A stretch of DNA of 64,000 nucleotides from Planctomycetota bacterium (GTDB lineage Bacteria > Planctomycetota > UBA1135 > UBA2386). The DNA is taken from contig CANEYR010000002.1 of NCBI GenBank assembly GCA_947444055.1, positions 62,001 to 126,000 of the forward strand, given 5' to 3'. Below, piece by piece: positions 1-15,778 of this stretch. The stretch's first letter is position 1, and each line of letters begins with the position of its first letter. The translations under genes were made by a program, and so were the position numbers. Below the pieces are notes generated by a model. It did not search any database and had not been told where the DNA came from. It worked only from the letters and a program-made list of their open reading frames with translations.

Positions 1-99
1 GGGCTCAAGAAGAGCCCGCGGCTGCTAGCCGACATCGGGCGCTGCAATGTGGCGGTCCGCTACCAGGCAGCCGATGCGATGGGGTTCGCGGAGGGGTGA
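1..99 (+). CDS. C-terminal end of an unidentified protein (5' truncated by window edge)
   Basis: An open frame runs from base 1 to a TGA at 97-99 and encodes the last 32 residues of a protein (ending AADAMGFAEG). It has no start because the window begins inside it. The fragment is too short to assign a family. It lies on the same strand as the STAS and histidine kinase genes that follow, separated from them by 137 bp, so it could belong to the same signalling cluster, but nothing in the visible residues proves this. Confidence 0.45.
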   Translation, partial: GLKKSPRLLADIGRCNVAVRYQAADAMGFAEG

Positions 100-226
100 C
101 TGCTCGGGGAACTCGGTCAGCGGCGCACTTTGCTACGCCATTTTTTCACGGCGACGCTCAACCTGACAGGGATCTTCGACCGATGGACGGCAGGCACGTG
201 CTCGTTGAACCGGGCGCGCGTTCACC

Positions 227-230
227 GAGG
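227..230 (+). promoter_or_regulatory. Shine-Dalgarno site of the STAS gene
   Basis: GAGG lies 6 nt upstream of the ATG at 237. It fixes the start of the STAS-domain protein. Confidence 0.55.
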
Positions 231-236
231 TAAGTC

Positions 237-626
237 ATGGAAATCGTCGGGAAGAAGAGTCAAGGACTGTCGGTCACCGCCCTTAAGGACGACAAGACCG
301 TCATCATCTCCTTCAACGATCGCAGTCTGAACTTCTACGTCACAGACTCCTTGAAGGAGTCGCTCAAGGAGACGATCAACGGCAAGATCGAGGAAGGTTA
401 CCAGCACTTCGTGCTGAACCTCGACAACGTCAAGATCATCGACTCGTGCGGCGTTGGCCTGATCATTGTGGCCAACAACGTGACGTCGTCGCGCAACTGC
501 AAGCTCTACCTGAGCAACATCAAGCCGTTCATCGTGAAGATCTTTGAGATCATGCGGATCTCGAAGCACTTGGCGATCTACGACAAGGAAGACGACGCGT
601 TGGCGGCGATCAAGGGCGGCAAGTAG
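237..626 (+). CDS. STAS-domain protein, anti-sigma factor antagonist type
   Basis: A 129-residue single-domain STAS protein of the SpoIIAA/RsbV type. The conserved loop reads IIDSCGVGLI (residues 67-76). Ser70 lies where SpoIIAA carries its phosphorylated serine (DSSG in that protein, DSCG here). The length is only slightly above the family norm of about 110. Such proteins bind anti-sigma kinases or act inside partner-switching complexes in the cytoplasm, and the switch is serine phosphorylation. The start is supported by GAGG 6 nt upstream. It is followed within 70 bp by a histidine kinase, a response regulator and a degenerate HD-GYP protein, so it probably belongs to one signalling unit. 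No partner Ser/Thr kinase or phosphatase is visible in the window; it may be encoded upstream. Confidence 0.85.
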   Translation: MEIVGKKSQGLSVTALKDDKTVIISFNDRSLNFYVTDSLKESLKETINGKIEEGYQHFVLNLDNVKIIDSCGVGLIIVANNVTSSRNCKLYLSNIKPFIVKIFEIMRISKHLAIYDKEDDALAAIKGGK

Positions 627-695
627 CCCTTCGCTGACTTCCGTCGTGAGCACACGAGGTCGCTTCGTTGTGCCTTCCTTCGGCCGCCGCGAACC

Positions 696-2255
696 ATGGC
701 TATCAGTGCGAGCATCCTGATCGTCGAGGGCGACGGCCGTAGCAGCGGCAAGCTGCGCGATCGCATCCTGGCGTCCGGCGGCAGCGTCACGGTTGCGCCC
801 ATGGTTTCGTCGTTGGCGACGATCCAGGCTGGCTCCTGGGACGCGGTGGTGCTGCCGTGCCCGGAGACTCCGTCGGCACTGGCCGATGCCGCGTTTGAGA
901 ACGGTACCGAGCTGCTGTTGTGGGCCGAGGCGGCCCCGAGCGCGGCCCAGTTGATGCTGGCCATGCGTGCTGGGTGCCTCGGAGTGTTGTCCACAGACAC
1001 CGACCCAAGCGCACTGCAAGAGTTGCTCACGTGCGTGCAAGGGCGGCGCCGACGCAGCGCGCACGCGCGGGAAGAGACCCGCCGCTTGCGCTACCAAGCG
1101 GACGATCTGCGGCTGCGCTGTTCGCGGCAGTCAGAGCGTTTTCAAGAGAACCAAGAGACCTACTTCCTCGACCTCTCCCGGATGATGACCATCATCACCA
1201 ACATCATGGATGGCATCGTGTTCGTCGATCGTGGTGGCAACGTCACGTTGATGAACCCGGTGGCCGAGGACTTGCTTGGCGCCAAGTCCTTCGTCGCGAT
1301 CGGCAAACCGATCGCTGCCTTGCAAGGACGCCGCGACCTGCTGCAGACGATTGCGACGGATCATGCGCGCATGACCACGCAGAAGGAGGTTGCCCAGACT
1401 GTCGAAGTGCACCACACCGAGCAGGATCTGCTCTACATCAAGTGCATGACGAGCCGCGTGCACGACTACCGCGGCGAGCCCGCCGGTGTGCTGACGGTGT
1501 TGCGGGATGTGACCGCCGAGTTCAAGACCGACCAACTCAAGAACCAGTACCTGTCGATCGTCGCCCACGAGCTGCGCACGCCGCTGACCGGCATCAAGAC
1601 GTTCGCCACCATGATGACCAAGGGCACGCTTGGCGCGCTCAGCGACCGTCAGATGCGTGTCTGCGAGTCGATTCGCGAGCAATCGATCCGGCTCGAACAC
1701 CAGATCGACAAGTTGATCAACCTCGGCAATCTGGAGTCGGCCGACTACGGGCAAGACCGCGAGGTGTTCTCGGTCACAGATTTGGCGACCGGCCTGCTGG
1801 TGCCGTTCGAGCAGCCGGCGCGCGATCGCCGGATCGCGCTCACGCTCGCGATCGACGAGAACAACGAGGACCTCTTCGCCGACCGAGCGGATTTGCGTCG
1901 GGCCTGCCAGGCGCTGGTCGAGAACTCCGTCAAGTTCGCTCGCGATGGTGGGCAAGTGGCCGTTCGCATCGAGCGTTTGGGCTCCAGCCTGCGATTCCGG
2001 GTCGCCGACGACGGCATTGGCATCGACCCTCGCTACCACCGGCGCATCTTCGAGAAGTTCTTCCAGGTGGAAGACCCTCTTACGCGCCACCACGGTGGGG
2101 CTGGTCTTGGCCTGTTTGTCGCAAAAGGGATCATCGAAGCACACGGAAGTCGCATCGAAGTCTCCAGCCAACTGGGTCAAGGTGCCGATTTCTCCTTTGT
2201 CCTGCCACTTCATCGGCAGGGCGTGGTCGCCGCTGTCGCATCCGCAGTCAAGTAA
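696..2255 (+). CDS. sensor histidine kinase with N-terminal pseudo-receiver and PAS domain
   Basis: A 519-residue soluble histidine kinase with no membrane segment. Residues 5-115 resemble a response-regulator receiver fold (ASILIVEGDG at the first strand), but the expected phospho-acceptor Asp is replaced: the strand reads DAVVLPCP, with Pro54 at that place. A PAS domain follows (about 155-275, MDGIVFVDRGGNVTLMNP). Next come HisKA with HELRTPL (phospho-acceptor His291) and HATPase_c with the N box ENSVKF (about 409), G1 box DDGIGID (about 439) and G2 box GGAGLGL (about 468). The gene ends in TAATG, sharing one base with the start of the response regulator, so the two are translationally coupled and very probably a cognate pair. 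The ligand of the PAS domain is unknown. Confidence 0.88.
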   Translation: MAISASILIVEGDGRSSGKLRDRILASGGSVTVAPMVSSLATIQAGSWDAVVLPCPETPSALADAAFENGTELLLWAEAAPSAAQLMLAMRAGCLGVLSTDTDPSALQELLTCVQGRRRRSAHAREETRRLRYQADDLRLRCSRQSERFQENQETYFLDLSRMMTIITNIMDGIVFVDRGGNVTLMNPVAEDLLGAKSFVAIGKPIAALQGRRDLLQTIATDHARMTTQKEVAQTVEVHHTEQDLLYIKCMTSRVHDYRGEPAGVLTVLRDVTAEFKTDQLKNQYLSIVAHELRTPLTGIKTFATMMTKGTLGALSDRQMRVCESIREQSIRLEHQIDKLINLGNLESADYGQDREVFSVTDLATGLLVPFEQPARDRRIALTLAIDENNEDLFADRADLRRACQALVENSVKFARDGGQVAVRIERLGSSLRFRVADDGIGIDPRYHRRIFEKFFQVEDPLTRHHGGAGLGLFVAKGIIEAHGSRIEVSSQLGQGADFSFVLPLHRQGVVAAVASAVK

Positions 2256-2641
2256 TGAGCACAGTCATGCAACGAACCGTTCTGATCATCGAAGACGAGA
2301 AGCTGATCATCGTCTCCACCCAGATGGTGCTCGAAGCGGCAGGCTTCCGCGTCGAATCGGCGACCAATGGCGAAGACGGTATCGCCAAAGCCAAGTCGCA
2401 AACTCCAGACCTCGTGCTGCTCGACATCATGATGCCGGGCATCGATGGGTGGGAGACGTTGACCAGGCTCAAGCGCGATACCGCGACGGCGAACATTCCC
2501 GTCGTTATTTTCACGGCCCGTGAACACTCGCGCGGCCACCAGAAGAGTGCCGAGATGGGCGCGGTCGACTACTTCCGCAAGCCGTTCGAGCCGGACGAGC
2601 TGATCGAACTCGTCGAGAAGCACGTCGGCCAGCGCGCCTAA
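2255..2641 (+). CDS. single-domain response regulator (CheY/DivK-like receiver)
   Basis: A 128-residue stand-alone receiver domain. All key residues are present: the acidic cluster E13-D14-E15, phospho-acceptor Asp57 (VLLDIMMPG), Thr87 (VIFTA) and Lys109 (FRKPFEP). It has no output domain, so its signal must pass by protein-protein contact. Its ATG overlaps the stop of the histidine kinase gene by one base, which makes that kinase the natural phosphodonor. The next gene, 7 bp downstream, encodes a degenerate HD-GYP-like protein and is a candidate partner. A second ATG 12 bp downstream (MQRTVLII) would give a slightly shorter product. Confidence 0.92.
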   Translation: MSTVMQRTVLIIEDEKLIIVSTQMVLEAAGFRVESATNGEDGIAKAKSQTPDLVLLDIMMPGIDGWETLTRLKRDTATANIPVVIFTAREHSRGHQKSAEMGAVDYFRKPFEPDELIELVEKHVGQRA

Positions 2642-2648
2642 GCGAGTC

Positions 2649-3302
2649 GTGGCGACGGACGAACCGATTGCGCCGATGCGGCGCCAGGAACGAGCTGCTC
2701 CGGATGCTGGCTCGCGCCTGCGGTCGGTGTTCTTGCAACATCGGTTGATCGCGGATCTGCCGCGCATCCCGGGGGTCGCGCCCTCGACGGCAAAGTTCGT
2801 CGTGGAGCAGGTCGTGGAGCGGTTGTTGGCGGTGCCCGCTGGGCTGGAGCCGTTGATGCTGCTGCAGCGTGACGAGGGTCTGCTGCGCCGTAGCACCGCG
2901 ATCGCCGTGCTGGCCGTCGTTCTCGCGCGGGCGGCGGGCTGGCCCGTCAGCAGCTTGCCGGACCTTGGTGGCGCCGCGTTGCTGGCGGACTTGGGGACGA
3001 TCCTCGATGAGGGGTGCCCGGGAACGGCAGCGTTCGCATGGCTGATCGAACGTGGAGTCGACGATTTCTGGCTGCGCAGCGCCTTGGTTGCCCGGCACGC
3101 ACGCATGACCGCTGCTAGCGACACCAGCCGACATCAAGAACTTGGAGCGGTCACGATCGTCAGCTTGGCGGCGGCTGTGCATGCTGCGCAGCAGCGATCG
3201 GGTGCGATGGCGCAATGGCTGACCGAGCTGCGAGCCGACGCGGCGAATGCGTTCCCGAGCGAACTGCTGGCCATCGTGCCGCAGGCGCTGCGCGGCAGCT
3301 GA
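2649..3302 (+). CDS. degenerate HD-GYP/HD-like signalling protein
   Basis: A 217-residue soluble alpha-helical protein with no clean match that I recognise. Its middle part (about 75-125) has the spacing of the first helices of an HD-GYP domain: a helix RRSTAIAVLAVVLARAAGW, then AALLADLGTI where HD-GYP proteins have A-A-L-L-H-D-I-G-K. His is replaced by Ala113, while Asp114 and Gly are kept. A later RHARM (150-154) may stand for the HHE region. The metal-binding residues are therefore mostly missing and c-di-GMP hydrolysis is unlikely. The start used is GTG at 2649; an ATG at 2676 is also possible. It lies 7 bp after the response regulator and is probably co-transcribed as an interaction module. 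The family call is inference. Confidence 0.55.
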   Translation: MATDEPIAPMRRQERAAPDAGSRLRSVFLQHRLIADLPRIPGVAPSTAKFVVEQVVERLLAVPAGLEPLMLLQRDEGLLRRSTAIAVLAVVLARAAGWPVSSLPDLGGAALLADLGTILDEGCPGTAAFAWLIERGVDDFWLRSALVARHARMTAASDTSRHQELGAVTIVSLAAAVHAAQQRSGAMAQWLTELRADAANAFPSELLAIVPQALRGS

Positions 3303-3314
3303 GAAGTCGCCTGC

Positions 3315-4577
3315 CTATTCGTGGCGCAGGGCTTCGACCGGATCCATGTTGGCCGCGCGCCAGGCGGGGTAGAGGCCGAACACCACGCCGACCGCGGCAG
3401 AGATGCTGAACGCGAGCAGCACGTGGATCGGCAGGATGTCGGTGTTCTGCTTGAAGAACTTCTCGATCGCGAGCGGCACGACCATGCCAAGCCCGACGCC
3501 GACGATGCCGCCGAGGGCGGACAACACGCCTGCTTCGACCAGGAACTGCTGCACGATGTGCTTCTTCTTGGCGCCCAGCGCGCGGCGGATGCCGATCTCG
3601 CGAGTGCGCTCGGTGACCGTCGCGAGCATCACATTCATGATGCCGATGCCGCCGACCAACAGGCTGATCGAGGCGATCACCGCCAGCACCAGGTTGAACA
3701 TGCGCTGGGTCTCTTCGGCCTTGCGCAGCAGCTCGAGCGGCACCGTCAGCTCGACATCCTTCTTGTTGCCGTGCGCTGGCTTCAGCATGTAGTCGAGCAC
3801 AGCCGCCGCTCCCACGACTTCGTCCATCGTCGGCAGCTTCACCTTGATCTCGTGCACCTCAACGTTCTCGTAGCGGTTGGTCGAGGGGTTGCGCACCGTG
3901 TCACCGAAGCGCCGCCGTGAACTAGCGAGTGGAATGAACGCGCATTCGTCGAGCGTCGTGCCGTTGGGCGAGGCGGCGCGGCCTTGGTACTGCAGCACGC
4001 CGACGACTTCGAAGCGGTCTTCGATGCCGACGAGAATGGTGTGACCGAGTGGATTCTCCAGTGGGAACAATTGCTTCGCCAAGCTGGCGCCAAGTACGCA
4101 CACGTTGGTCTGGCGTTGCTGGTCGAGTTCGGTCAGCCACCGGCCTTCGACCACCTTCATGTTGGTCACCGGCAGGAAGTCGACTTCCGTGCCGACGATC
4201 AGCGTGCTGCTCCAATTCTCGCCGCGAATGATGCCGCGTTGGAATTCACGCACGCGCACGACCGTCGCCGTCGGCAGCAGGTTCTGAATGCGATCGGCCT
4301 CTTGGTAGAAGAGGCCGTAGCCGAGCACGCTCATCGTGCTGGTCGTTGACGATTGCTGGGTCTCCTCGGGCTTCTTGCTGCGAATCAGCACGTTGGTGAC
4401 GCCCATTTCGCGGTACTGCTTCAGCGTCTCGGCGGAGGCGCCCTCACCAACGGCGAGCATCGCGATCACCGACGCCACGCCGAACAGGATGCCGGCGGTG
4501 GTGAGCGAGCTGCGCAGCTTGTGCAGCATCAGGCTCTTCAAGCCCAAGTTCACCATTCGCATCGTGTCGCGAATCAT
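3315..4577 (-). CDS. MacB/LolC-type ABC transporter permease
   Basis: A 420-residue inner-membrane permease of the MacB family. It has one N-terminal membrane segment (about 18-40, within KLRSSLTTAGILFGVASVIA), a large periplasmic MacB_PCD domain, and three C-terminal segments in the FtsX domain. The FtsX domain contains the conserved TERTREIGIRRALGAKK stretch after the second membrane segment, and the protein ends VEALRHE. The start is the ATG at 4577, which overlaps the stop of the ATPase gene by 4 bp (ATGA); a longer upstream frame is only read-through of the ATPase tail. With the ATPase, adaptor and TolC-type genes on the same strand it completes a tripartite pump. MacB systems move peptides, lipoproteins or drugs from the periplasm outward; the substrate here is unknown. 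Confidence 0.92.
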   Translation of the reverse strand: MIRDTMRMVNLGLKSLMLHKLRSSLTTAGILFGVASVIAMLAVGEGASAETLKQYREMGVTNVLIRSKKPEETQQSSTTSTMSVLGYGLFYQEADRIQNLLPTATVVRVREFQRGIIRGENWSSTLIVGTEVDFLPVTNMKVVEGRWLTELDQQRQTNVCVLGASLAKQLFPLENPLGHTILVGIEDRFEVVGVLQYQGRAASPNGTTLDECAFIPLASSRRRFGDTVRNPSTNRYENVEVHEIKVKLPTMDEVVGAAAVLDYMLKPAHGNKKDVELTVPLELLRKAEETQRMFNLVLAVIASISLLVGGIGIMNVMLATVTERTREIGIRRALGAKKKHIVQQFLVEAGVLSALGGIVGVGLGMVVPLAIEKFFKQNTDILPIHVLLAFSISAAVGVVFGLYPAWRAANMDPVEALRHE

Positions 4578-5353
4578 GCGTGGCCTCCGTTCGTTGCCGC
4601 GCCGCCACGATTGTCGACCAGCCGATTGTCGACCAGCCGACCGTCGACCAATCGATTGTCGACCAGCTTTTCGACCTGGCCGTCCTTCAGCCAAAGCGTG
4701 TGGTCAGAGCGTTCGGCGACCTTGGGGTTGTGGGTGACGATGACAATGGTGACGCCGTCGGCGCGCAGGTCATCGAACAGGTCGAGGATCTCCTTCTCGG
4801 TGTTGCTGTCGAGATTGCCCGTCGCTTCGTCGGCGAGCAAGAACAGCGGATCATTCATCAGGGCGCGTGCAATCGCCACGCGCTGTTGCTGGCCGCCAGA
4901 AAGCTCCATCGGCCGGTGTTCGAGCCGTCCACCCAGGCCTACGCGCTCGGCCAGGTACTCCGCCTTCGCCCGTGATTCGGCGCCAACTCGCCCTTGGTAG
5001 AACAGCGGCACTTCGAGGTTCTCCAGCACACTCAACTGCGGGATCAGGTTGAACGACTGGAAGATGAACCCGATCTCGCGGCCGCGCACGTCGGACAGAT
5101 CGTCGTCACTCAACTGGCTGACGTCGCGCCCGCCGACGCGGTACTGGCCGGTGGTCGGGCGATCGAGGCCGCCGAGGATGTTGAGCATCGTGCTCTTGCC
5201 CGAGCCGGAGCGTCCCATGATCGACAGGTAGTCGCCTTTCTTGACCTGAACCGAGACGCCGTTCAAGGCGCGCACGACGTTCTTGCCCATCACATAGTGA
5301 CGATGCACGTCGACGAACTCGGCGATGACCGCGCGTTCCGAAGTGGTTTGCAC
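4574..5353 (-). CDS. ABC transporter ATP-binding protein (MacB/LolD type) with a repeated C-terminal tail
   Basis: A 259-residue ABC ATPase. It has Walker A GRSGSGKST (47-55), the Q-loop in FIFQSFN (97-103), signature LSGGQQQR (151-158), Walker B FLLADEA (171-177) and the H-loop in VTHNP. It energises the MacB-like permease whose start it overlaps by 4 bp. It begins 12 bp after the adaptor gene, so the operon order is TolC, adaptor, ATPase, permease. After the normal end of the domain (QVEKL) the protein carries four copies of LVDNR/LVDGR (230-249), encoded by a 15-bp tandem repeat, then GGAATNGGHA. This tail is not part of the family fold and looks like a recent expansion. Confidence 0.95.
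   Translation of the reverse strand: MQTTSERAVIAEFVDVHRHYVMGKNVVRALNGVSVQVKKGDYLSIMGRSGSGKSTMLNILGGLDRPTTGQYRVGGRDVSQLSDDDLSDVRGREIGFIFQSFNLIPQLSVLENLEVPLFYQGRVGAESRAKAEYLAERVGLGGRLEHRPMELSGGQQQRVAIARALMNDPLFLLADEATGNLDSNTEKEILDLFDDLRADGVTIVIVTHNPKVAERSDHTLWLKDGQVEKLVDNRLVDGRLVDNRLVDNRGGAATNGGHA
4607..4666 (-). repeat. 15-bp tandem repeat, four copies, in the 3' end of the ABC ATPase gene
   Basis: Four consecutive 15-bp units, read on the + strand as variants of CGATTGTCGACCAGC, encode LVDNR-LVDGR-LVDNR-LVDNR. The period keeps the reading frame, so copy number can change without a frameshift. Confidence 0.85.
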
Positions 5354-5365
5354 TGGGGATCCAGA

Positions 5366-7525
5366 TCAGTTGCCGCGCCGGCCGCCGCCGCCGCCGCCAT
5401 TGCCACCTTCGCCGTTGCCGCGGCGCGGACGATCGCCGCCAGGCTCGGCGGGGCTTGCTCCGCCTGGGCGATTGCCGCGGTTGCGCATCAACGAGCTGAG
5501 CTTGTCCTTTTGGATCTGACCAGCGACGAGGTCGTTCTTGTCGAGGGCCGCTTTGAGGGCCGTGATCGCCGTCTCCATTTCGTTGGCGGCATCGAGGCTG
5601 CCCGTCTCCCGCATGCCATCGATCATGCGTTGCATGCCACCGAGACGCTCCTTGTAGCTGGCCAGATCCTCCGCGGTCATGTCGGCGAGCTTCTGGTTCA
5701 TGCCGCCCGTACCTTGACCGCGTCGCCGCGCGGCGTCGCCGTTCGCGGCATCGCCTTCGCCATTGGTGTTGGCGGTCTCCTTCAGTGGGGCCGGGATCGG
5801 CACCACCGGCTGCTCGAACTTCGGTGGTTGCACACCAGCCGGATCCTTCAAGAGCAGGGTGTCGCCGGCGCTGATGCCGGATAGCACTTCGACGCGCTCG
5901 GTGTTTTGGCGGCCACACTGAATCGGCACGGCCTTGGGGCCCCCGGCCTCTAGGCGCCACACGTAGTTGACGGAACGGTCGCGGAAGATGGCTTGCAGCG
6001 GCACTGGCAGCGTGTCCTTGATCACGTCGACCATGATCGTCACGTTGGCGGCCATGCGGGACCGCAGGCGGCCCTCGGGGTTGTCGCTGTCGAGCTCGAC
6101 GACGGTTGTGTAGACCTTGCGATCGCTGGTCATCCAGCCGCTATTGCTGTCGGCTACGGGCGCGACGCTGGTGACGCGGCCGGTGAAGGTCTCGCCTTGG
6201 AATGCCTCGGCGCTGACGAAGGCCGGCTGGCCGCGGGTGACCTTGTCGATCTGGGCTTCTTGCACCTTGATCACGCAGCGCATCTTGGTGGTGTCCGGCA
6301 GGCTGATCAGTTCTTGTCGTTCACGCACTTGCACACCTTCGCGCACGGCTTCGCCGCCACCGCGATTGCGGTCGATGCGGGCGTAGACGACGGTGCCTGG
6401 CGTGGGGGCGAGGATGACCGCACTCGTGATCTGGCGTTGCAGGTTGTCGAGGCGCTCCTTGGCGAGCGAGTACTCCTTCTCCTTGGCCTCGACGTCGAAT
6501 TGCATCTTCTTGCGTTCGGCGTCGTTGCTCGCATCAACGCGCTCGAGTTCCAGCGAAGCATTCTCGAAGTCCTGCGTCATCTTGATGCGGCTGGTCTTCA
6601 GCGTGTAGTTGACCAGCAGCTCGAGATCGTTCCACGCGATGGTGACCTTGCTCGCTTGGCTCTGGTAGGAGAGCTCGTCGCGTTCGAGTTCGTTGCGCGT
6701 GATGAACTTCTTGCCGGCGAGCCGACGACTGTGTGAGACCGTGTCTTCCTTGACCTTGAGCTCCGCCATCGCGAGGCGGATCTGGTCGGCTTGCTGCAGG
6801 ATCTTGTTGGCCATCTCGCCCATGTCGCGATCGAGCGCATCGGGCTCACCGGCAGCGACGGGAACGTCGAGCAGCTGCACGACCTTGTCGATCAGGCCGA
6901 CGTAGTTGTGCGGGTTGATGCGGGCGACGATGCCCTGCGGGGCCGCCGGACCGCTCTGGGCGTTGGCTTCCGTCGCGGTCGGTTCGCCGGCTGGTTCCGA
7001 CACCAAGTCGCGCAAGCGCCGCACCATGTCCGCGTTCTTGCCCTCAGAGCCCTTGCCGCCACTTGCACCAAGCAGCTTTTCGAGGTCCATGCGCGCGATC
7101 TCGAGCTGGGACTTGGCCGTGTTCCTTTTGGTCGTCAGCTCCTTCTCAAGGATGTCCTTTTGCGTGCGCGCCTGTTCGTGGGCGCTGTGTGCCTTCTCGA
7201 CGGAGATCTCTTGCGTGGAGGCTTTCTCGACGAGTTCGCTGACGTCGAGTTCGACCAGCTTCTCGCCCTTCTTCACCAGCGTGCCTTCGGCCACGATGAA
7301 AATGATCGTCGATTGGCCTTCGACTTCGGAGCGAACGATCGTCTCGCGCAGCGCCTGCAGCTCCGCGTTTTCGCGCACGGTGATCGGCAGTTCTTCGCGC
7401 TTGACGAGGAAGTGGTTGGGGTCCTGAGCGGGCGGCGTGCCGTCGCCATTGCTGCAACTGGCGAGACCGGCGGCGAGCATCAAGACGGCGAAACGAGCAC
7501 GGGAAACGATCATGGGAATGTTCAC
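5366..7525 (-). CDS. periplasmic adaptor (MacA/HlyD family) lipoprotein with unusual extensions
   Basis: A 719-residue membrane-fusion protein, about twice the length of MacA. The N terminus is a lipoprotein signal (lipobox LASC, Cys24). The biotinyl-lipoyl half-motif is around TIIFIVAEGTLVKKGEKL, followed by a long coiled coil rich in Glu, Lys and Ala. A second coiled-coil arm (about 320-375) precedes PTPGTVVYARID, and then comes the beta-barrel/membrane-proximal domain. From about residue 585 there is a non-family extension: a helical segment (MTAEDLASYKERLGG), a Pro/Gly-rich linker and a tail of Arg-Gly and poly-Gly (GGNGGGGGGRRGN). The start overlaps the TolC-type gene stop by 4 bp. It should bridge the permease and the outer-membrane channel. 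The role of the tail is unknown. Confidence 0.88.
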   Translation of the reverse strand: MNIPMIVSRARFAVLMLAAGLASCSNGDGTPPAQDPNHFLVKREELPITVRENAELQALRETIVRSEVEGQSTIIFIVAEGTLVKKGEKLVELDVSELVEKASTQEISVEKAHSAHEQARTQKDILEKELTTKRNTAKSQLEIARMDLEKLLGASGGKGSEGKNADMVRRLRDLVSEPAGEPTATEANAQSGPAAPQGIVARINPHNYVGLIDKVVQLLDVPVAAGEPDALDRDMGEMANKILQQADQIRLAMAELKVKEDTVSHSRRLAGKKFITRNELERDELSYQSQASKVTIAWNDLELLVNYTLKTSRIKMTQDFENASLELERVDASNDAERKKMQFDVEAKEKEYSLAKERLDNLQRQITSAVILAPTPGTVVYARIDRNRGGGEAVREGVQVRERQELISLPDTTKMRCVIKVQEAQIDKVTRGQPAFVSAEAFQGETFTGRVTSVAPVADSNSGWMTSDRKVYTTVVELDSDNPEGRLRSRMAANVTIMVDVIKDTLPVPLQAIFRDRSVNYVWRLEAGGPKAVPIQCGRQNTERVEVLSGISAGDTLLLKDPAGVQPPKFEQPVVPIPAPLKETANTNGEGDAANGDAARRRGQGTGGMNQKLADMTAEDLASYKERLGGMQRMIDGMRETGSLDAANEMETAITALKAALDKNDLVAGQIQKDKLSSLMRNRGNRPGGASPAEPGGDRPRRGNGEGGNGGGGGGRRGN

Positions 7526-9189
7526 TCCGCGGCCTTGGCTTGCGGGATCGGCAGCGATTGGTCGAAGCGCAGCCCTGCTGGTTGCAGGGCGATCGCTTCC
7601 AGGTCGTTCATCAACTGCAGGCGCGCGATCGAGTAGTCGACGATGGCGGCGGTCAATTCGAGTTGGGCTTGCAACAGCGCGTCTTGGGCGTCGAGCTTCT
7701 CCAGCGCATCGACGCGGCCGGCGTCGTACAGGTCAGTCGTTGCTTCGACGCGCTGGCCCGCCAGTTCGACCGCGACGGTTTGAATGCGGAAGCTGTCGAT
7801 GGCGCTCTGGATGTTGCGCAACGACGTGCGAACGCCGGCGCCGACCTGATCTTCGCTCTCTTCGCGCGAGCGAACGGCCTGGTCGAAACTGATCAGCGCG
7901 CCGCGGTAGGCGTTGCGTTCCGCCAACTTGTCGAGCGCCAAATCGAGTTGGAACCCAGCCGACCAGTTGACGCGCGACCAGTCGAGATTGAGTCCTTTGC
8001 CAGACTCGGCGGGCACGTTGAGCGCTGCCGTGAAGTCGAGCGCCATCGTCAGCGCATCCTCGGCGACGTAAATGCGGCGACCGGCGTCCTCGACTTCATC
8101 GATGACGGTGCGATGGTCCAAACGCCGTTGCAGGGCGAGGTCGAGGGCCGAGTTTTCGGTCAGTGTCACTTCGCTGACGCCTTGCGCGTTCAACTTCTCG
8201 ATCTCCTTCGGATCGAGTTCGAGCTGAGCCGTGATGGGCAGGCCGAGCGTGAGCTTGAAGCGATCCAGGGCACCCTGCAGCCGGTTCTTGGCCGCCACGC
8301 GCTGGGCGTCAGCGGAGAACTCGCTCTGCTTGGCGCGGCCGAGGTCCGTGATGGTGCGACGCCCGGCGTCGAACAGCTCTTCGATTTGCTCGCGCGATTG
8401 GCGCAAGGTGCGGTAGTTGGCTTCGACGTTGACGAGGTCGGCCATCTGCGCCGCGACGTTCCAGTAGTCGCTGACGATGGTGACTGCGAAGTCGGCGCGG
8501 AAACGTTCGAAGCTGCGCATCGCGTAGATGACGTCGCGTTCGGATTGCGTCAGCGGCTCGCGCACGATGCGGCGCCCCGCACCACTCAGCAGCGGTTGGG
8601 TCAGAGTCAGGTTGAGGATCGAGCTGCCGTCGAAGCTGCCGCCCGAGATCACCGAGCGCAGGAAGGTGTTGACGAAGCTCGCGACCACGCGCGTGCCGGC
8701 CACACTGGTTGCGCTGGCCCCCAGGTCGTTGCCGAGCCGTGCATCGGCGCTGGTGTCTGACTCGCCACTCACTTCCCCTTCGCCGCCGCCGCCAAACCGC
8801 CAAGCGAAGTCATGTTGGCTGCGCGTCAGGCTCAGCGCCGCCAGATACAGCTGTTCCTTCTGCCGCTGGAAGTCGCGGCTGTTCTCGGCGGCGACATCTA
8901 AGGCCTGCGCCAACGACAGGTTCACTGGTTGCTTGGTGGCGACCAGCTTTTCGCGCAGTGTGTCAACAGGCCGTTCGACGGCGAACTTGGGTCGCTCCGC
9001 GGTGGTTGTCCCGCTGACCTTCTGCGCGACTTCGTCGAGGATCGAATAGACCTGCTCATCGGCCGACTCCTTGTTGGCACTCGGGGACCAGCAAGCAGCG
9101 AGTGCCAAGAGGCACAGCGACGACGTCGAGCGATAGAAGGCTTGGTTCTGCAAGGCGAACGGATGGTTGCGGGCGGCTTTGGTGGGCAA
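7522..9189 (-). CDS. TolC-family outer-membrane efflux lipoprotein
   Basis: A 555-residue outer-membrane factor. It has an N-terminal lipoprotein signal (lipobox LAAC, Cys33). Two long alpha-helical coiled-coil repeats carry family hallmarks such as LNLTLTQPLLSGAGR (strand region), YWNVAAQ, and VELAGQRVEATTDLYDAGRVDALEKLDAQ in pieces near 480-510. It is the first gene of the four-gene minus-strand export operon and gives the exit duct for the MacAB-like pump. Its 5' end faces the coaB gene across a 104-bp divergent spacer (9190-9293) that must hold both promoters; I see no convincing -10/-35 pair there. Confidence 0.9.
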   Translation of the reverse strand: MPTKAARNHPFALQNQAFYRSTSSLCLLALAACWSPSANKESADEQVYSILDEVAQKVSGTTTAERPKFAVERPVDTLREKLVATKQPVNLSLAQALDVAAENSRDFQRQKEQLYLAALSLTRSQHDFAWRFGGGGEGEVSGESDTSADARLGNDLGASATSVAGTRVVASFVNTFLRSVISGGSFDGSSILNLTLTQPLLSGAGRRIVREPLTQSERDVIYAMRSFERFRADFAVTIVSDYWNVAAQMADLVNVEANYRTLRQSREQIEELFDAGRRTITDLGRAKQSEFSADAQRVAAKNRLQGALDRFKLTLGLPITAQLELDPKEIEKLNAQGVSEVTLTENSALDLALQRRLDHRTVIDEVEDAGRRIYVAEDALTMALDFTAALNVPAESGKGLNLDWSRVNWSAGFQLDLALDKLAERNAYRGALISFDQAVRSREESEDQVGAGVRTSLRNIQSAIDSFRIQTVAVELAGQRVEATTDLYDAGRVDALEKLDAQDALLQAQLELTAAIVDYSIARLQLMNDLEAIALQPAGLRFDQSLPIPQAKAAE

Positions 9190-9293
9190 CGGTCTTAGAA
9201 GGCCTTCGATGTTTTTTCTCCCCCGCGCCGCTCGTGTTACTACGATAGGACGGCTGGCGGTTGCGGCCCAGAAGGCCGCTGTTCGACGGGGGT

Positions 9294-9947
9294 ATGGTCT
9301 CCATCTTGATCACGGCGGGTCCGACCCGCGAGTACCTCGACGACGTGCGATTCCTGAGCAATGGCAGCTCGGGACGCATGGGGTGCGCCTTGGCGCAGGC
9401 GGCCCGCCAGGCGGGTTGCAGCGTCACCTTGGTGCTCGGCCCCATCGAACGCACACCACCTAGCGAGGTCGCTGTGGTGCCGGTGGTTTCGGCGTTGGAG
9501 ATGCAAACTGCCGCTGAACGCGCGTTCGCCAGTTGTGACATCGTGATCGCGGCCGCAGCGGTCAGCGACTGGCGCCCGCAGCAGCGTTCGCTCGGTAAGC
9601 CAGCACGCGTGGAAGGCGCGGTTCGCCTCGACCTGGTACCGAATCCTGACATCGTCGCGGGGCTCGCGGCGCAGAAGCGTCACCGTGTGGTGGTCGGCTT
9701 CGCCCTCGAGTCCAGCGCCGCGGGCATGCCGGCGGCGATCGTGCGCGGCCGCGAGAAGCTGCGCCGCAAGGGGCTCGATCTCGTCGTCGTCAACCTGCAC
9801 GACACGATTGGCAATACCGCAGCGGAGTTCGTTCTGTGCCATGCCGATGGCCGCGACGAGCCGCTGCCTCGACTCAACAAAGAAGCTGCCGCGACGCACA
9901 TCGTCACGGTGGCTCTGCACCTGTGGCGGATGAGGGAATCGAAGTGA
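9294..9947 (+). CDS. coaB: phosphopantothenate-cysteine ligase (CoaB domain, stand-alone)
   Basis: A 217-residue CoaB. It ligates 4'-phosphopantothenate to cysteine in coenzyme A synthesis. The family signature is clear at the N terminus: ITAGPTREYLDDVRFLSN with GSSGRMG following (residues 6-30). Later come AAAVSDW (about 94-100), KPARVEG, LVPNPDIVAGLA and GFALES. Most bacteria fuse CoaB to CoaC (the decarboxylase); only the ligase half is here, so CoaC must be encoded elsewhere. The start is the ATG at 9294 behind a G-rich stretch (CGGGGGT). It overlaps the ftsK start by 4 bp (GTGA). Confidence 0.9.
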   Translation: MVSILITAGPTREYLDDVRFLSNGSSGRMGCALAQAARQAGCSVTLVLGPIERTPPSEVAVVPVVSALEMQTAAERAFASCDIVIAAAAVSDWRPQQRSLGKPARVEGAVRLDLVPNPDIVAGLAAQKRHRVVVGFALESSAAGMPAAIVRGREKLRRKGLDLVVVNLHDTIGNTAAEFVLCHADGRDEPLPRLNKEAAATHIVTVALHLWRMRESK

Positions 9948-12742
9948 GCAAGAGCGAAAACAAAGAGTCCGAGGCGCCGCCGAAGAAGCGCGCCAACCGC
10001 TACGTGCCGCTGGACGACGTCAGGCCACCGGGCTTGTCGCAGCGCGCGCGGGAAGTGGTGGCGTTGGCCCTATGCGGGTTCGCGCTGTACGCGATGTTGT
10101 GTCTGGCGACGTTCAGCAAGGCCAACCTCGACGCCGAGATCCCGACGGGAGGCATGCAGAACCTTGGTGGTGCCATTGGCTACCACCTGGCGCATGGCTT
10201 CACGCGGTCGCTCGGGCTCGCCGGCTGGGTCCCGTTCGCCATGCTGTTGTGCAGCGCGCTGTGGCTGTTCGTCGGTCGCCCGCTGCAACGCCCGACCATC
10301 AAGGCGCTCGGCACCGTGGTGTTCGCGGCGATGCTGTCGATCCTGTTCGCGGGTGGTGACGGCCAGGCCGGTGTCAGCGCGACCACTCCATGGGGGGCTG
10401 GTGGCGTGTTTGGGCACACGGTGTCGCCGCGGCTTGAAGCGGGGTTTGGCAGCACCGGCCGATTGTTGCTGGTGATCTTCGGTGCCGTGATGGCTCTGAT
10501 GATCGCCACCGAGTGGTTGTTCTCGCAGTTGGTGCTGCGGGCCGTGGCTGGCATGGAGGCGCTGTGGCGTCGACTGCTGCGCCGACCTGCCGCTGCTGCG
10601 GTCGGCGGTGGCGCGATGCTGGACGAAGAGGATGACGTGCTGCCGAAGCGGCGGCGGCGTGCGCTTGCCGATGACAAGTCGGGGGCGACGCCGGGCAATG
10701 CGATTGAGCTGCCCGGTGACGAGATCGCGACGGCGACGAAGCGCCCGAGTCCGAACGACACCGACGAAGCCAGTGACGACATCCGACCGAGCGAACTGGC
10801 TGTGGCCGCGGGCCCGGATGACGACCGCAAGGGCGCGTCCCGGCGTCGACGCGGCCGTTCGGCCGCTAGCGAGGACATGGAGGCGAGCAAGGATGCGGCG
10901 AGCGAGCCGATTGTGGTGATCCCTGCATTGGTGGACGACGAGGACGTCGTGGGCAGTTCACGCCAGCAAGAGGACGTGGGCGACAGCGTCGACCACAGCT
11001 CCGCGGTCGCGGCCGCACCGGTAACGCCGCCGCCAATGCCGATCGTGGTGTTGAAGCCAAAGCCGCCGAAGCCGAAGCCGCCGAAGCCGAAACCGAAGAA
11101 GCCGGCCGGCCAGAGCACGTTGCCGTTTGAGGACTACCCGTTCCCGCCGATCGAGTTGTTTCAGGAGCCCGCACTCAACGACGCGACCGTCACGTCCGAC
11201 ATGTTGGCCAAGGGTGGGCAAGCGATCGTCAACAAGTTGGCGAACTTCGGCATCCAGTCGGTGGTGGTCGAGGCCTCGGTCGGCCCGGCCGTTACACAGT
11301 ATGAACTGCGCCTCGACGAGAGCATCCGCGTCAACAAGATCGCCGGCTTCGAGTCCGACCTCGCGGCGGCCCTGAAGGCGGTGTCGGTGCGCGTCGTGGC
11401 GCCCATTCCCGGCAAGGACACGATTGGCATCGAGGTGCCGAACGCCGAACGCCAGAAAGTGTTCATGCGCGATCTGCTCGACCAGTTCGGTCGCTCCGAG
11501 GATCTGGCGATCCCGCTCTACCTTGGCAAGGACGTCGCTGGCAATGCGATCGTCGAAGACCTGGCGCGCATGCCGCACTTGCTGATCGCCGGCACCACGG
11601 GTTCGGGCAAGTCGGTGTGCATCAATACGATCTTGCTGTCGATCCTGATGACGCGCACGCCGAGTCAGGTGAAGTTGATCCTGGTCGACCCGAAGATGGT
11701 GGAGTTGCAGGCCTACAAGCGGGTGCCGCACCTGTGCTGCGATGTTGTCACCAACATGAAGAAGGCTGCCGGCGTGCTGCAGTGGGCAGTCGACGAGATG
11801 GAGAACCGTTACGCGCTGCTGTCGGGAGCCGGCGTCAACCACATTCGCAACTACAACCGCCTCGGTCAGCAAGAGCTCGCGAAGCGTTTGCAGCGCGAAC
11901 CCGACCCCGAGCGGGTGCAGTTGCCGTACGTCGTCATCGTCATCGACGAGTTCGCCGACTTGATGAACGTGGCGCAGAACGAAATCGAGGAGCTGATCCA
12001 ACGTCTGGCCCAGAAGTCGCGCGCCGTCGGCATGCATGTCATCCTGGCTACCCAGCGCCCATCCAGTGAAGTCATCACCGGCATCATCAAGGCCAACCTG
12101 CCGTGCCAGATCGCCTTCAAGGTCAATCGGCGCATTGATTCGCGCGTGATCCTCGACGCCAATGGGGCTGAGAAGCTGCTCGGCTTTGGCGACATGCTCT
12201 ACATGCCGCCGGGGGGTGGGGCGTTGATGCGGGCGCAGGGCACGTTCGTGGCGGACGATGAAATGCAGGCGGTCGTGCGGTTCTTGGAGGAACACGGCCA
12301 GGAGCCGCAGTTCACGGCGGCGTTGATGCAGACGCAGAGCAGTTCGCGGCCCGCCATCGCCGATCGGGATGAACGCTACCGCGAAGCGGTCGAGATCATC
12401 CTCGGCCAACAGCGCGGTTCGGCGACCCTGCTGCAGCGCGCCCTCGCGGTCGGCTATACGCGGGCGACGCGCTTGCTTGAGCTGATGGAAGAGGACAGCA
12501 TCGTCGGCGCTTTCGTCGGCAGTAAGTCGCGTGAGGTGCTACTGACGCTCGAAGAGTGGCGGGCCCGCGAAGAGCAGCGTGAAGCACTTGCCGAGGAAGC
12601 GCCGCCGGACGAGGGCGGCGGCGACGAAGCCGCGGCGGCTGCTGAGGATGTTGTGGACCCGGCCACGGTGATGCCCGACGGCGAGGTTGGGCCCGTGGGG
12701 GAAGGCGAAGCCGCAGCTCCCGACGCGGAGGGCTCTCGCTGA
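9944..12742 (+). CDS. ftsK: FtsK/SpoIIIE-type DNA translocase
   Basis: A 932-residue chromosome translocase of the division septum. The start is the GTG at 9944 within GTGA, coupled to coaB. There are four membrane segments in the first 200 residues (for example CGFALYAMLCLA and WVPFAMLLCSALWLFVG). A long acidic and basic linker (about 220-400) follows, with a run of KPPKPK-type repeats. The motor has Walker A GTTGSGKS (550-557) and Walker B VVIVIDEF (663-670). The C-terminal gamma winged-helix domain (about 808-872, ILGQQRGSATLLQRALAVGY) reads KOPS-type polarity sites. A further acidic tail (about 60 residues) follows gamma, which is unusual because gamma normally ends the protein. The next gene is a motor-less relative. 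Confidence 0.95.
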   Translation: MSKSENKESEAPPKKRANRYVPLDDVRPPGLSQRAREVVALALCGFALYAMLCLATFSKANLDAEIPTGGMQNLGGAIGYHLAHGFTRSLGLAGWVPFAMLLCSALWLFVGRPLQRPTIKALGTVVFAAMLSILFAGGDGQAGVSATTPWGAGGVFGHTVSPRLEAGFGSTGRLLLVIFGAVMALMIATEWLFSQLVLRAVAGMEALWRRLLRRPAAAAVGGGAMLDEEDDVLPKRRRRALADDKSGATPGNAIELPGDEIATATKRPSPNDTDEASDDIRPSELAVAAGPDDDRKGASRRRRGRSAASEDMEASKDAASEPIVVIPALVDDEDVVGSSRQQEDVGDSVDHSSAVAAAPVTPPPMPIVVLKPKPPKPKPPKPKPKKPAGQSTLPFEDYPFPPIELFQEPALNDATVTSDMLAKGGQAIVNKLANFGIQSVVVEASVGPAVTQYELRLDESIRVNKIAGFESDLAAALKAVSVRVVAPIPGKDTIGIEVPNAERQKVFMRDLLDQFGRSEDLAIPLYLGKDVAGNAIVEDLARMPHLLIAGTTGSGKSVCINTILLSILMTRTPSQVKLILVDPKMVELQAYKRVPHLCCDVVTNMKKAAGVLQWAVDEMENRYALLSGAGVNHIRNYNRLGQQELAKRLQREPDPERVQLPYVVIVIDEFADLMNVAQNEIEELIQRLAQKSRAVGMHVILATQRPSSEVITGIIKANLPCQIAFKVNRRIDSRVILDANGAEKLLGFGDMLYMPPGGGALMRAQGTFVADDEMQAVVRFLEEHGQEPQFTAALMQTQSSSRPAIADRDERYREAVEIILGQQRGSATLLQRALAVGYTRATRLLELMEEDSIVGAFVGSKSREVLLTLEEWRAREEQREALAEEAPPDEGGGDEAAAAAEDVVDPATVMPDGEVGPVGEGEAAAPDAEGSR

Positions 12743-12842
12743 CGCCGTCCCATCGCTTGTGGCGTGCTAGGCAGCGCTGTAGATTCCTAGTGTTCCGTTC
12801 GGTGGCGCCGGACGAACGCTGAGCAACCGCCTGGAGGGGCGC

Positions 12843-14264
12843 ATGACCGTGAATTCGCTGGCTTCACCGGACTTCTCTCGTCCATCGCGCACCGTCGCCG
12901 AGTGGCTGTGGCCATTCATCCCAATGGGGATCGCGGCGTTGTCGCTGTCGGCGCTGGTTTACTACCACCTGCATCAGCAAGTCTTCGAGGTCCGCTCGGC
13001 GCTGCAGCAGTTCTATGCCGGCCTCTACCGCATGGTCGGGTTTGCCCCGGCGGTGATGTTCTTCTTCTTCGTGATCGTGTGGAGCACGATCTGGCTGGTG
13101 GTCGGCAAGCTCGATCGCCCGCTATCGCGCCTTGGTCGCTTGGTGGCGATGGCGGTGATGCTCGGCATCTTTCTCAACCTCGGCGATGGCAAGGTTTCGC
13201 CCGACTTGCACAAGGGCGCGATCGGGGCCTGGTTTGCGGAGACGTTGGTCGGGGCGTTCGGCTACCTGCCGAGCCTGATTGTCGTCGGCGCCATCACCTT
13301 CGCGTCCTTGCTGTTGGCCACGGACTACCTCTTTCACGAGAGCTTCGAGCGAATGCGAATTCGCCAGCGGCCGCTGCTGGATGTCGGCGTGGAAGATGCG
13401 GTTACGGAACACTTGCGTGGCTTGGCTGAATCGGCGCCGGTGGTCTCGCCGACCATCTCGCCGACCATCTCGCCTGCCGTCTCGCCTGCCGTCGCGCCGT
13501 TGGCTGACGAGGCCACCGAGGCCCCGGCGAACGAGGCGCCAGCGCATGCTGCTAACGACCAGCAGGGAGTCGATCCGGACGAGCCGTCCGCCAGCCCCTC
13601 GTACCTAGAGCGGCGTCGGCGGCGCGAAGAACGTTCCTGGCGGCGTCATGACGAAGACGAATGGGTGCCCGCCGCGCCGGAGAGCCAGGAGATCGACAAC
13701 CCTGAAATCTCCGCCGTCCTGCCCGTGGTTGAGGCCGAACTCAGTGTCGTCGTGGCGCCCGATTTGCAAGGTGTGGCGGCGGTGGATTCGCCAGTCGAAG
13801 TCGAGCCAAGCGCGGCACCTTCACCGGTCGCTGAGTTGGCAGGGACGATCGGCGAGAGTTCGGTTGCTGACACCAACACCGAGCCTGTCGACGGTGAGTC
13901 TTCGCCAACTGCCTTCGATCCTGGTTCGGTCTGGCCAGACGAGCTACCGCCGCCGGTCGAACGCATGGTGACGATCCCGAGGCCGGATCCAGCGCCAGCG
14001 CCAGCGCCAGCACAGGAGCCGGTGACGGATGGGTGGCCAGAGTCGCCGCGCAAGCAGCAGCAGCTGTTTGGTGCTCAGCTCGAGGAAGGCTTGGTGCAGG
14101 AAGCCATTGATGTCGTGACGGGATCGCGCCGTGCCAGCGTGGTGTTGCTGCAACGCAAGCTGCGCATCGATTACGCGCGGGCCTCAGAGTTGTTGATCGA
14201 GCTGGCGGCCCGCGGCGTGATCGCCCTCGAAGGCGACGCGACGCATGGTCGCGTGCTCGGTTGA
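12843..14264 (+). CDS. motor-less FtsK-like protein: membrane anchor, linker and gamma domain only
   Basis: A 473-residue protein built like the FtsK encoded just upstream but without the ATPase. The N terminus has four predicted membrane segments (about 22-42, 67-88, 98-114, 141-161). Its segment APAVMFFFFVIVWSTIWLVVG and the later GDGK and ATDYLFHESF stretches line up in order with WVPFAMLLCSALWLFVG, GGDGQ and ATEWLFSQ of FtsK. Next is a long acidic, Pro/Ala-rich linker (about 175-405) holding a TISP/AVSP repeat. The C-terminal 62 residues match the gamma winged helix (VTGSRRASVVLLQRKLRIDY against LGQQRGSATLLQRALAVGY). No Walker A or B exists. It probably arose by duplication of ftsK and could modulate FtsK assembly or DNA recognition. 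The role is inference; the architecture is directly seen. Confidence 0.8.
   Translation: MTVNSLASPDFSRPSRTVAEWLWPFIPMGIAALSLSALVYYHLHQQVFEVRSALQQFYAGLYRMVGFAPAVMFFFFVIVWSTIWLVVGKLDRPLSRLGRLVAMAVMLGIFLNLGDGKVSPDLHKGAIGAWFAETLVGAFGYLPSLIVVGAITFASLLLATDYLFHESFERMRIRQRPLLDVGVEDAVTEHLRGLAESAPVVSPTISPTISPAVSPAVAPLADEATEAPANEAPAHAANDQQGVDPDEPSASPSYLERRRRREERSWRRHDEDEWVPAAPESQEIDNPEISAVLPVVEAELSVVVAPDLQGVAAVDSPVEVEPSAAPSPVAELAGTIGESSVADTNTEPVDGESSPTAFDPGSVWPDELPPPVERMVTIPRPDPAPAPAPAQEPVTDGWPESPRKQQQLFGAQLEEGLVQEAIDVVTGSRRASVVLLQRKLRIDYARASELLIELAARGVIALEGDATHGRVLG
13443..13490 (+). repeat. 12-bp tandem repeat, four copies, in the linker of the motor-less FtsK-like gene
   Basis: Four units of the type (G/A)TCTCGCC(G/T)(A/C)CC run in frame and encode SPT/I-type residues (TISP, TISP, AVSP, AVAP follow one another in the linker). 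A fifth, diverged unit follows. Confidence 0.8.
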
Positions 14265-14290
14265 TCTGCCCGTTCGAGTGCAGATTTCTT
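14264..14290 (+). terminator. possible weak hairpin terminator after the motor-less FtsK-like gene
   Basis: ATCTGC (14264-14269) can pair with GCAGAT (14280-14285) across a 10-nt loop, followed by TTCTT. The stem is only 6 bp, so termination may be partial. It lies in the 164-bp gap before dnaB. Confidence 0.3.
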
Positions 14291-14428
14291 GCGAGTGCGT
14301 GCAGGCTCGCGGTGGAGCGGCTCGTGGCGCGTCATCCCCACTCACTCCACGATTGCTGACAGGTTCTCCACAGAGCGTTGGCTTGCGGTCTCCAACGTGG
14401 TTGCTAAGGAAGACTCGGGCGGTGATGC

Positions 14429-15778
14429 ATGGTGGATTTCAAGCAGACCTTTGATGGGCGCGGTGTGCCGCAGAATCTCGAGGCCGAACGATCGGTGCTC
14501 GGGGCGTTGCTCCTGCACTCCGATGCGGTGGTGGACGTCACGTTCCTCAAGCCGGACGACTTCTACCTGCCTCGTCATCAGCTGATCTTTCAATCGATTG
14601 TCGGCGCCTACAACGGTCGCCACGCCACCGACCCCATCGTGGTTGGCGAGGAGCTGTCGCGCAGCGGGCGGCTGCAGGAAGCTGGCGGACACGAACAATT
14701 GCTCGATCTGATGGAGAGCGTGGTGACGGCGGCCGGTGTCGTCTACCACGCTGAGATCGTGCGCGAGAAGGCGATCCAGCGGAAGCTGCTGGAGACCTGC
14801 CTCGATGTCGCTCGTCGCGCCTACGACAACGAGATGGACGCCAAGGAGCTGCTGGACGAAGCCGAGCGGCAGATCTTCGAAATCTCGCGAATGGACAAGA
14901 GTGGCGACGCGGTCAGCATCGCCGACGTGTTGCAGTCGACCTTCGAACGCATCGATCGCCTGCGCGAACGTGACGGCCGTTTGACCGGGCTCGACACCGA
15001 CTTCTACGACCTCAACGACATCACCGGCGGCCTGCAGCCGGGCGAGTTGATCATCATCGCGGCGCGCCCCTCGATGGGCAAAACGACGTTCGCCCTCAAC
15101 CTGACCGAGCGCTCAGCCAGCAAAGGCGCCTGCGTGGCGTTCTTCTCGCTCGAAATGTCGAACCAGCAGATCATCCAGAACATGCTGTGTTGCCGGGCGC
15201 AGATCGACGGCCAGGCGATGCGCCGCGGCCGCATCACCGACCAGCAGTACAAGCGGTTGCAAGAGGAAGCGGCCCGGCTCTACGAAACGCCGATCTTCGT
15301 CGACGACACGCCAGGCATCTCGATCACCCAGCTGCGGGCCAAGTGCCGCCGACTCAAGCAGAAGAACAAGATCGACCTCGTGGTTGTCGACTACCTGCAG
15401 CTGATGTCCGGCGGCGGCCGCTTCGAGAGCCGTCAGCAGGAGATTTCCGCGATCTCGCGTGGTTTGAAGAGCATTGCGCGCGAGCTTTCCATCCCGGTGA
15501 TCGCGCTATCGCAGCTCAACCGCGACGTCGAGAACCGCGACGACCACAAGCCACGCATGAGTGACTTGCGTGAGTCGGGGGCAATCGAGCAGGATGCCGA
15601 CGTCATTGTCTTGCTGCACCGCGACGACTACTACAAACCGACCGAACAGAATGCTGGCTTGGCGCAGATCATCATCGCCAAGCAGCGCAACGGCCCGACC
15701 GGCGAAGTCGTGCTGCGGTTCTTCCGCGAGTACATGCGTTTTGAGAACTACACCAGACGGGCTGAACCGATGCAGTGA
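14429..15778 (+). CDS. dnaB: replicative DNA helicase DnaB
   Basis: A 449-residue replicative helicase. The N-terminal domain opens with VPQNLEAERSVLGALLLH, as in DnaB. The RecA-like motor has Walker A ARPSMGKTT (about 212-220) and Walker B LVVVDYLQLMSGGGR (about 318-332). The C-terminal stretches SQLNRDVENRDDHKPRMSDL and SGAIEQDADVIVLLHRDDYY (about 355-395) are also typical. Length is normal (E. coli 471). It unwinds DNA ahead of the fork and recruits primase. The gene lies 164 bp after the FtsK-like gene, and its 3' end overlaps the coding frame of the next gene on any reasonable start of that gene. Confidence 0.97.
   Translation: MVDFKQTFDGRGVPQNLEAERSVLGALLLHSDAVVDVTFLKPDDFYLPRHQLIFQSIVGAYNGRHATDPIVVGEELSRSGRLQEAGGHEQLLDLMESVVTAAGVVYHAEIVREKAIQRKLLETCLDVARRAYDNEMDAKELLDEAERQIFEISRMDKSGDAVSIADVLQSTFERIDRLRERDGRLTGLDTDFYDLNDITGGLQPGELIIIAARPSMGKTTFALNLTERSASKGACVAFFSLEMSNQQIIQNMLCCRAQIDGQAMRRGRITDQQYKRLQEEAARLYETPIFVDDTPGISITQLRAKCRRLKQKNKIDLVVVDYLQLMSGGGRFESRQQEISAISRGLKSIARELSIPVIALSQLNRDVENRDDHKPRMSDLRESGAIEQDADVIVLLHRDDYYKPTEQNAGLAQIIIAKQRNGPTGEVVLRFFREYMRFENYTRRAEPMQ

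Follow-up and report, generated by a model that had tools for sequence, protein, structure and literature searches.

Planctomycetota divide without FtsZ, and among the few division proteins that they have kept and apparently need is FtsK. FtsK appears to be essential in the planctomycete P. limnophila, for which one FtsK homologue is reported (PMC6952346), and in Chlamydia, which are also FtsZ-less, FtsK is an early organiser of division and of the divisome (PMC11975371). In the present analysis FtsZ went undetected in the genome under study and in all but a few of 292 Planctomycetota genomes, and no match exceeded the curated cut-off. The locus described here raises the question of what a second, shortened version of FtsK, encoded beside ftsK itself, could be doing in such a bacterium. 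It lies in a window of 64,000 nucleotides (the whole stretch of DNA that was analysed) from a Planctomycetota contig, where an ORF of 473 aa with an intact reading frame (12843–14264, + strand) has ftsK before it and dnaB after it. A conserved anchor and DNA-contacting tip of FtsK without the pump would be a candidate part of the missing division machinery.

Domain layout of the gene between ftsK and dnaB

The upstream neighbour is a full-length ftsK (9947..12742, + strand; GTG start at 9947 set by comparison with relatives) encoding 4TM, alpha, motor and gamma domains (PF13491, PF17854, PF01580 and PF09397, respectively), and the downstream neighbour is the replicative helicase gene dnaB (14429..15778, + strand). 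The N-terminal part of the 473-aa protein between them (residues 18–175; 12894..13367, + strand) is a 4TM region of the FtsK type. A profile-profile comparison (hhalign) of 23 paralogues with the 4TM domains of 22 adjacent FtsK proteins gave a probability of 98.8% and an E value of 5.5e-17, and an AlphaFold model derived from 33 members of the family showed four long helices at residues 25–43, 67–87, 93–114 and 141–175. Taken alone, the window protein matched the Pfam 4TM model over an N-terminal piece with an E value of 0.55, which is under the cut-off, and PF13491 was matched individually by 11 of the 33 paralogue members. The C-terminal residues 414–473 (14082..14261, + strand) form a gamma winged helix. 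FtsK_gamma (PF09397) was matched by the window protein over the curated cut-off (E 1.9e-10) and by 32 of the 33 members, and the sequence matches of this end in the PDB were the FtsK gamma structures 2j5o, 2ve8, 2j5p and 5dcf, a set of gamma domains from P. aeruginosa and E. coli. The assignment is further supported by the AlphaFold model, in which residues 415–471 comprise three helices and two strands with block-mean pLDDT values of 84–97, and by a Foldseek search with the gamma model, whose top 13 matches were all FtsK gamma chains, the best E value being merely 3e-3 because the domain is small. A long disordered linker joins the 4TM and gamma regions.

When the FtsK motor model was compared with all six frames of positions 12743–14428, no match was obtained (best E 1.2), as against an E value of 5e-292 for the neighbouring FtsK. 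The paralogue is therefore not a translocase, and a frameshifted or hidden motor is ruled out by the same search. Chance likeness of both ends to FtsK is ruled out by the Pfam, hhalign and Foldseek results, and also because of the conservation and synteny described in the next section. A MarR-type regulator was considered and rejected, PF12802 matching the full window protein with an E value of 0.11, under the cut-off, and 2 of the 33 members at E values up to 0.01. A sequence-only reading of this DNA had taken the gene for a tandem FtsK paralogue that had lost its motor and kept the anchor and the gamma domain, and Pfam, hhalign and the six-frame search agree with it: the likeness to FtsK is significant in both the N-terminal profile comparison and the C-terminal Pfam match, and the gamma-like end is predicted to be a winged helix, closest in fold to FtsK gamma domains of known structure. 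The outcomes named beforehand as counting against that reading (no profile match, another fold or a motor-restoring frameshift) did not occur, and the window gene is almost certainly a motor-less FtsK paralogue.

The protein resembles the FtsK (E. coli) and SpoIIIE (B. subtilis) translocases in its N-terminal 4TM region, long linker and C-terminal gamma winged helix, and it is encoded beside ftsK and derived from it. Unlike these translocases, it has no alpha/beta motor and no Walker motifs, its KOPS-reading residues are lost in the window's own family and a QxxLF motif stands ahead of gamma. Gamma domains outside a motor protein are also found in phage gamma proteins and fusions such as the Sam46/Sam112 small terminase, but the latter carries a terminase domain and its gamma is reported to retain the DNA-binding residues (PMC8190038). 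As far as the searched literature shows, the 4TM-linker-gamma layout without a motor appears to be undescribed; the earlier reading had likewise known of no family with this layout, and no published description was found.

Distribution and age of the paralogue

In what follows, f1 denotes the window's own family, other f numbers denote family-level groups of Planctomycetota and L numbers denote loci. A search of 61 related genomes showed the paralogue to be present throughout f1. In a synteny sample of 30 f1 loci (29 fetched loci and the window), ftsK lay upstream of the paralogue in 28, the two exceptions being L034, at a contig edge, and L055, with none within reach, and dnaB lay downstream in 29, the exception (L046) being at a contig edge. 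A 422-aa ORF stands between ftsK and the paralogue in L038, and the two genes are 6.7 kb apart in L058. Whole-gene dN/dS values of the paralogue ranged from 0.11 to 0.51 (six pairs). Beyond f1, the ftsK-paralogue pair was found in nine further family-level groups, seven of them (f3, f6, f8, f25, f31, f33 and f54) with clear and two (f2 and f4) with weaker matches. Within the window's order the paralogue occurs in f3, f6, f7 and f8 and also, in a more divergent form, in f2 and f4; in groups that do not belong to this order (f25, f31, f33 and f54) it immediately follows ftsK. Named relatives are uncultured Planctomycetota, including a CL500-15 bacterium. Its conserved position, purifying selection and recurrence beside ftsK in further families show that the paralogue is a genuine gene, and the pairing next to dnaB extends through f1, with the pair itself reaching more families. 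In the sampled loci of f5, f10, f21, f28, f30, f45, f57 and other families, the full FtsK alone was detected at the ftsK locus with the models used, a result that concerns this position and does not prove that the paralogue has been lost. Matches from Hydrogenedentota (L115, L116, L118 and L119) and Sumerlaeia (L120) were full FtsK proteins with motors and not paralogues.

Three further loci were recorded in the same survey. In f7, L129 (3125–5260) encodes a paralogue that has gamma and matches 4TM weakly, and no ftsK was detected in the 3 kb upstream. In f18, L152 (4536–4955) holds a 140-aa ORF after ftsK with a weak gamma match and no membrane part. In f59, L148 (G156, 1–10001) holds a second ORF with motor and gamma (584 aa) in which no 4TM was detected, the full FtsK being at L149.

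The age of the duplication was estimated from a 4TM and gamma tree of 47 rows from six families (f1, f2, f4, f5, f6 and f8), all of the window's order. In this tree a single branch, with a support of 99/98, set every paralogue apart. A recent, local duplication confined to f1 was rejected with these 47 rows (p-AU 6.4e-5). The duplication is therefore older than at least the split between f1 and f6, and the paralogue is an ancient tandem copy of ftsK from which the motor has been lost. The same split of the paralogues was seen in phylum-wide trees, though with poor support (57/0 and 16/27); a single origin across the phylum is no more than likely.

Linker motif and a proposed tethering role beside FtsK

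In the f1 alignment the per-column mean conservation was 0.28 for the linker, 0.60 for the 4TM region and 0.63 for gamma. The linker nevertheless contains conserved islands, namely GVE (residues 182–184), SYLERR (residues 253–258; 13599..13616, + strand; SYxERR in its family form), ERMVTIPRP (residues 373–381; 13959..13985, + strand; several columns at 85–96%) and a segment with the f1 consensus [RK]QxxLF (residues 404–409). In the window the last of these includes QQQLF (residues 405–409; 14055..14069, + strand), a clamp-type Q-x-x-L-F pentapeptide 11 residues ahead of gamma that the sequence-only reading had not noted. QxxLF was found in 24 of the 27 f1 paralogues against 0.30 expected from shuffled linkers, always 10–12 residues ahead of the first gamma helix and in an exposed stretch with a model pLDDT of about 50; the segment is missing from L035 and L044 (sister lineages) among the three f1 paralogues in which the motif is absent. 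Four f6 members show QALLF, QEQLF, QEALF and QALLF at −12. QxxLF next to gamma was absent in f8, f25, f31 and f33, so the motif is not common to the whole paralogue group. QxxLF is the general consensus for clamp binding in bacteria, with QL[SD]LF as a narrower form (PMC12309361), and DnaE of the same genome contains GQKMLFAAP, i.e. QKMLF followed by A. The paralogue is thereby similar to the clamp clients PolC, DnaE and Hda, which carry a pentapeptide of QxxLF consensus in a disordered stretch; unlike them, it is a membrane protein of FtsK descent and its clamp binding is putative. The motif is short, and its conservation shows its importance without identifying the clamp as its partner.

A related hexapeptide was noted in FtsK itself. 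Residues 389–394 of the window FtsK read QSTLPF, immediately ahead of the alpha domain, and Q-x-x-L-P-F occurs at this pre-alpha site in most f1 FtsK proteins, resembling the hexapeptide clamp form QLSLPL (PMC12309361). In L035 and L044, where the paralogue is without QxxLF, the FtsK copy is one residue shorter. The QxxLPF of f1 FtsK proteins may be a coincidence arising from a structural element.

The reading that we tentatively favour, as a serious possibility, is that the paralogue is a passive, membrane-anchored, non-translocating partner of FtsK and acts as a tether for DNA or for the replication machinery, the clamp being its most concrete candidate partner. The 4TM part would bring the protein to the division site with FtsK, perhaps as mixed oligomers, and the gamma domain would grip DNA without reading KOPS, or would grip a protein partner. 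If QxxLF binds the sliding clamp, as proposed, the paralogue could tether the replisome, or newly replicated DNA that still bears clamps, to a division machinery that has no FtsZ, and the clamp-type motif in this way hints that replication and division are directly linked. A more specific and fairly doubtful version is that QxxLF binds clamps left behind on newly replicated DNA and so keeps this DNA next to FtsK at the division membrane; the clamps, which have a single orientation on DNA, would provide a mark linking replication to division that replaces KOPS reading by the paralogue.

The main alternative to such a tether is a regulatory subunit of FtsK, in which the 4TM part would join FtsK oligomers and tune their assembly or activity while the C-terminal domain would merely aid contact with FtsK or DNA. 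The homology of its 4TM region to that of the adjacent FtsK and the constant neighbourhood are consistent with this, as is the overlap of the paralogue start codon with the ftsK stop in three f6 members (L062, L063 and L066). However, gamma is kept under purifying selection and therefore does more than ride along as a passenger. Moreover, a conserved promoter-like sequence belongs to the f1 gene itself, so that its product need not be made there in a fixed ratio to FtsK. An alignment of 15 intergenic regions revealed this sequence as the pair TTGTGG and TAGATT separated by 17 nt (12757..12785, + strand); the pair was not reported by a generic promoter scanner. A regulatory subunit, a role that the sequence-only reading had also suggested, is regarded as somewhat unlikely.

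Two other signals were found in the leader. A pattern search showed a 19-nt inverted repeat, CGTTCGGTGGCGCCGGACG (12796..12814, no strand assigned), which occurs once in the genome and once in each of five relatives, always just upstream of the paralogue, and in which 92.8% of cells are paired. It may serve as an operator or as a hairpin of the leader; the repeat showed no compensatory changes and the hairpin gave no Rfam match, on which grounds a proven RNA was rejected. The sequence GGAGGGG (12833..12839, + strand), invariant in a 12-leader alignment, is the ribosome-binding site.

Contacts of the gamma domain and the less probable roles

Residues of gamma are given below in E. coli FtsK numbering; the part of the E. 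coli gamma sequence used for it agrees with the 2j5p alignment. In the E. coli FtsK gamma domain, Q1288, R1289, R1292, I1293, G1294 and N1296 touch XerD, R1289 being the most critical (PMC5052618). The window paralogue retains Q437, R438, R441 and I442, corresponding to Q1288, R1289, R1292 and I1293, and has D at G1294 and A at N1296. All 27 f1 paralogues carry Q, R or K at 1288 and retain R1289, R1292 and I/V1293. This conservation, and the ability of a gamma blind to KOPS to activate XerCD all the same (PMC5052618; PMC2680272), would fit a protein that activates XerCD recombination independently of translocation, like the E. coli XerD-gamma fusions. However, the two best Xer proteins of the genome, its XerC/XerD-like pair, have K-P and D-G at XerD E183-E184, with which R1289 critically pairs. 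These gamma residues touch DNA as well, so that keeping them is no specific sign of XerD, and the adjacent motor FtsK likewise has Q1288 and R1289. Such an activator is considered rather improbable. As to the earlier proposal that the protein may activate recombination, the four XerD-touching residues of gamma named above are retained, and their counterparts on the Xer side are not. Since the XerD side is not conserved, R1289 may have been retained for contact with the DNA backbone or with another partner.

The KOPS-reading residues gave a different pattern. R1300, E1303 and E1306 in the recognition helix of E. coli FtsK read KOPS, and the triple change R1300A, E1303A, E1306A, made to abolish this recognition, is a route to KOPS-blind FtsK mutants, which still support XerCD recombination (PMC2680272). 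In the window paralogue these three residues are replaced by E449, I452 and A455, respectively. Among the f1 paralogues R1300 was retained in 0/27, E1303 in 1/27, E1306 in 0/27 and R1297 in 2/27, whereas the adjacent FtsK retains all four throughout f1, and R1300 was present in 74 of 79 FtsK rows phylum-wide (two of the 79 being misplaced rows). The f1 pattern therefore indicates that the DNA-reading face was abandoned and that helix 2 kept its basic end. The sequence-only reading had suggested that the protein marks DNA polarity, and a septum-bound reader whose gamma recognises KOPS-like sites and marks the direction of the chromosome would accord with the clear homology and fold of gamma and with the more distant paralogues of f2 and f4, in which R1300, E1303 and E1306 are retained. 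The loss of these residues in f1, with the neighbouring FtsK retaining them, nevertheless makes polarity marking by the paralogue unlikely, and the recognition helix varies among paralogues, where a common site would demand conservation; a polarity reader is thus held to be highly improbable. As f2 and f4 retain the reading residues, their loss was not simultaneous with that of the motor everywhere. The paralogue resembles E. coli FtsK[blind] and the XerC/D-gamma fusions in that gamma is blind to KOPS or works without the motor, but those are engineered laboratory constructs and the paralogue is a natural conserved gene, whose activation of Xer would be putative. Evolution would thus have separated what laboratory mutants separated by hand, namely the contacts of gamma from the reading of KOPS.

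A decaying, functionless duplicate, to which the missing motor, the loss of several residues in gamma, a split reading frame in L045 and a missing gamma match in L049 might point, is practically untenable and is refuted by conservation, as the gene is intact in nearly all f1 genomes, its dN/dS is well under 1, its linker islands are conserved and the duplication predates f1 and f6.
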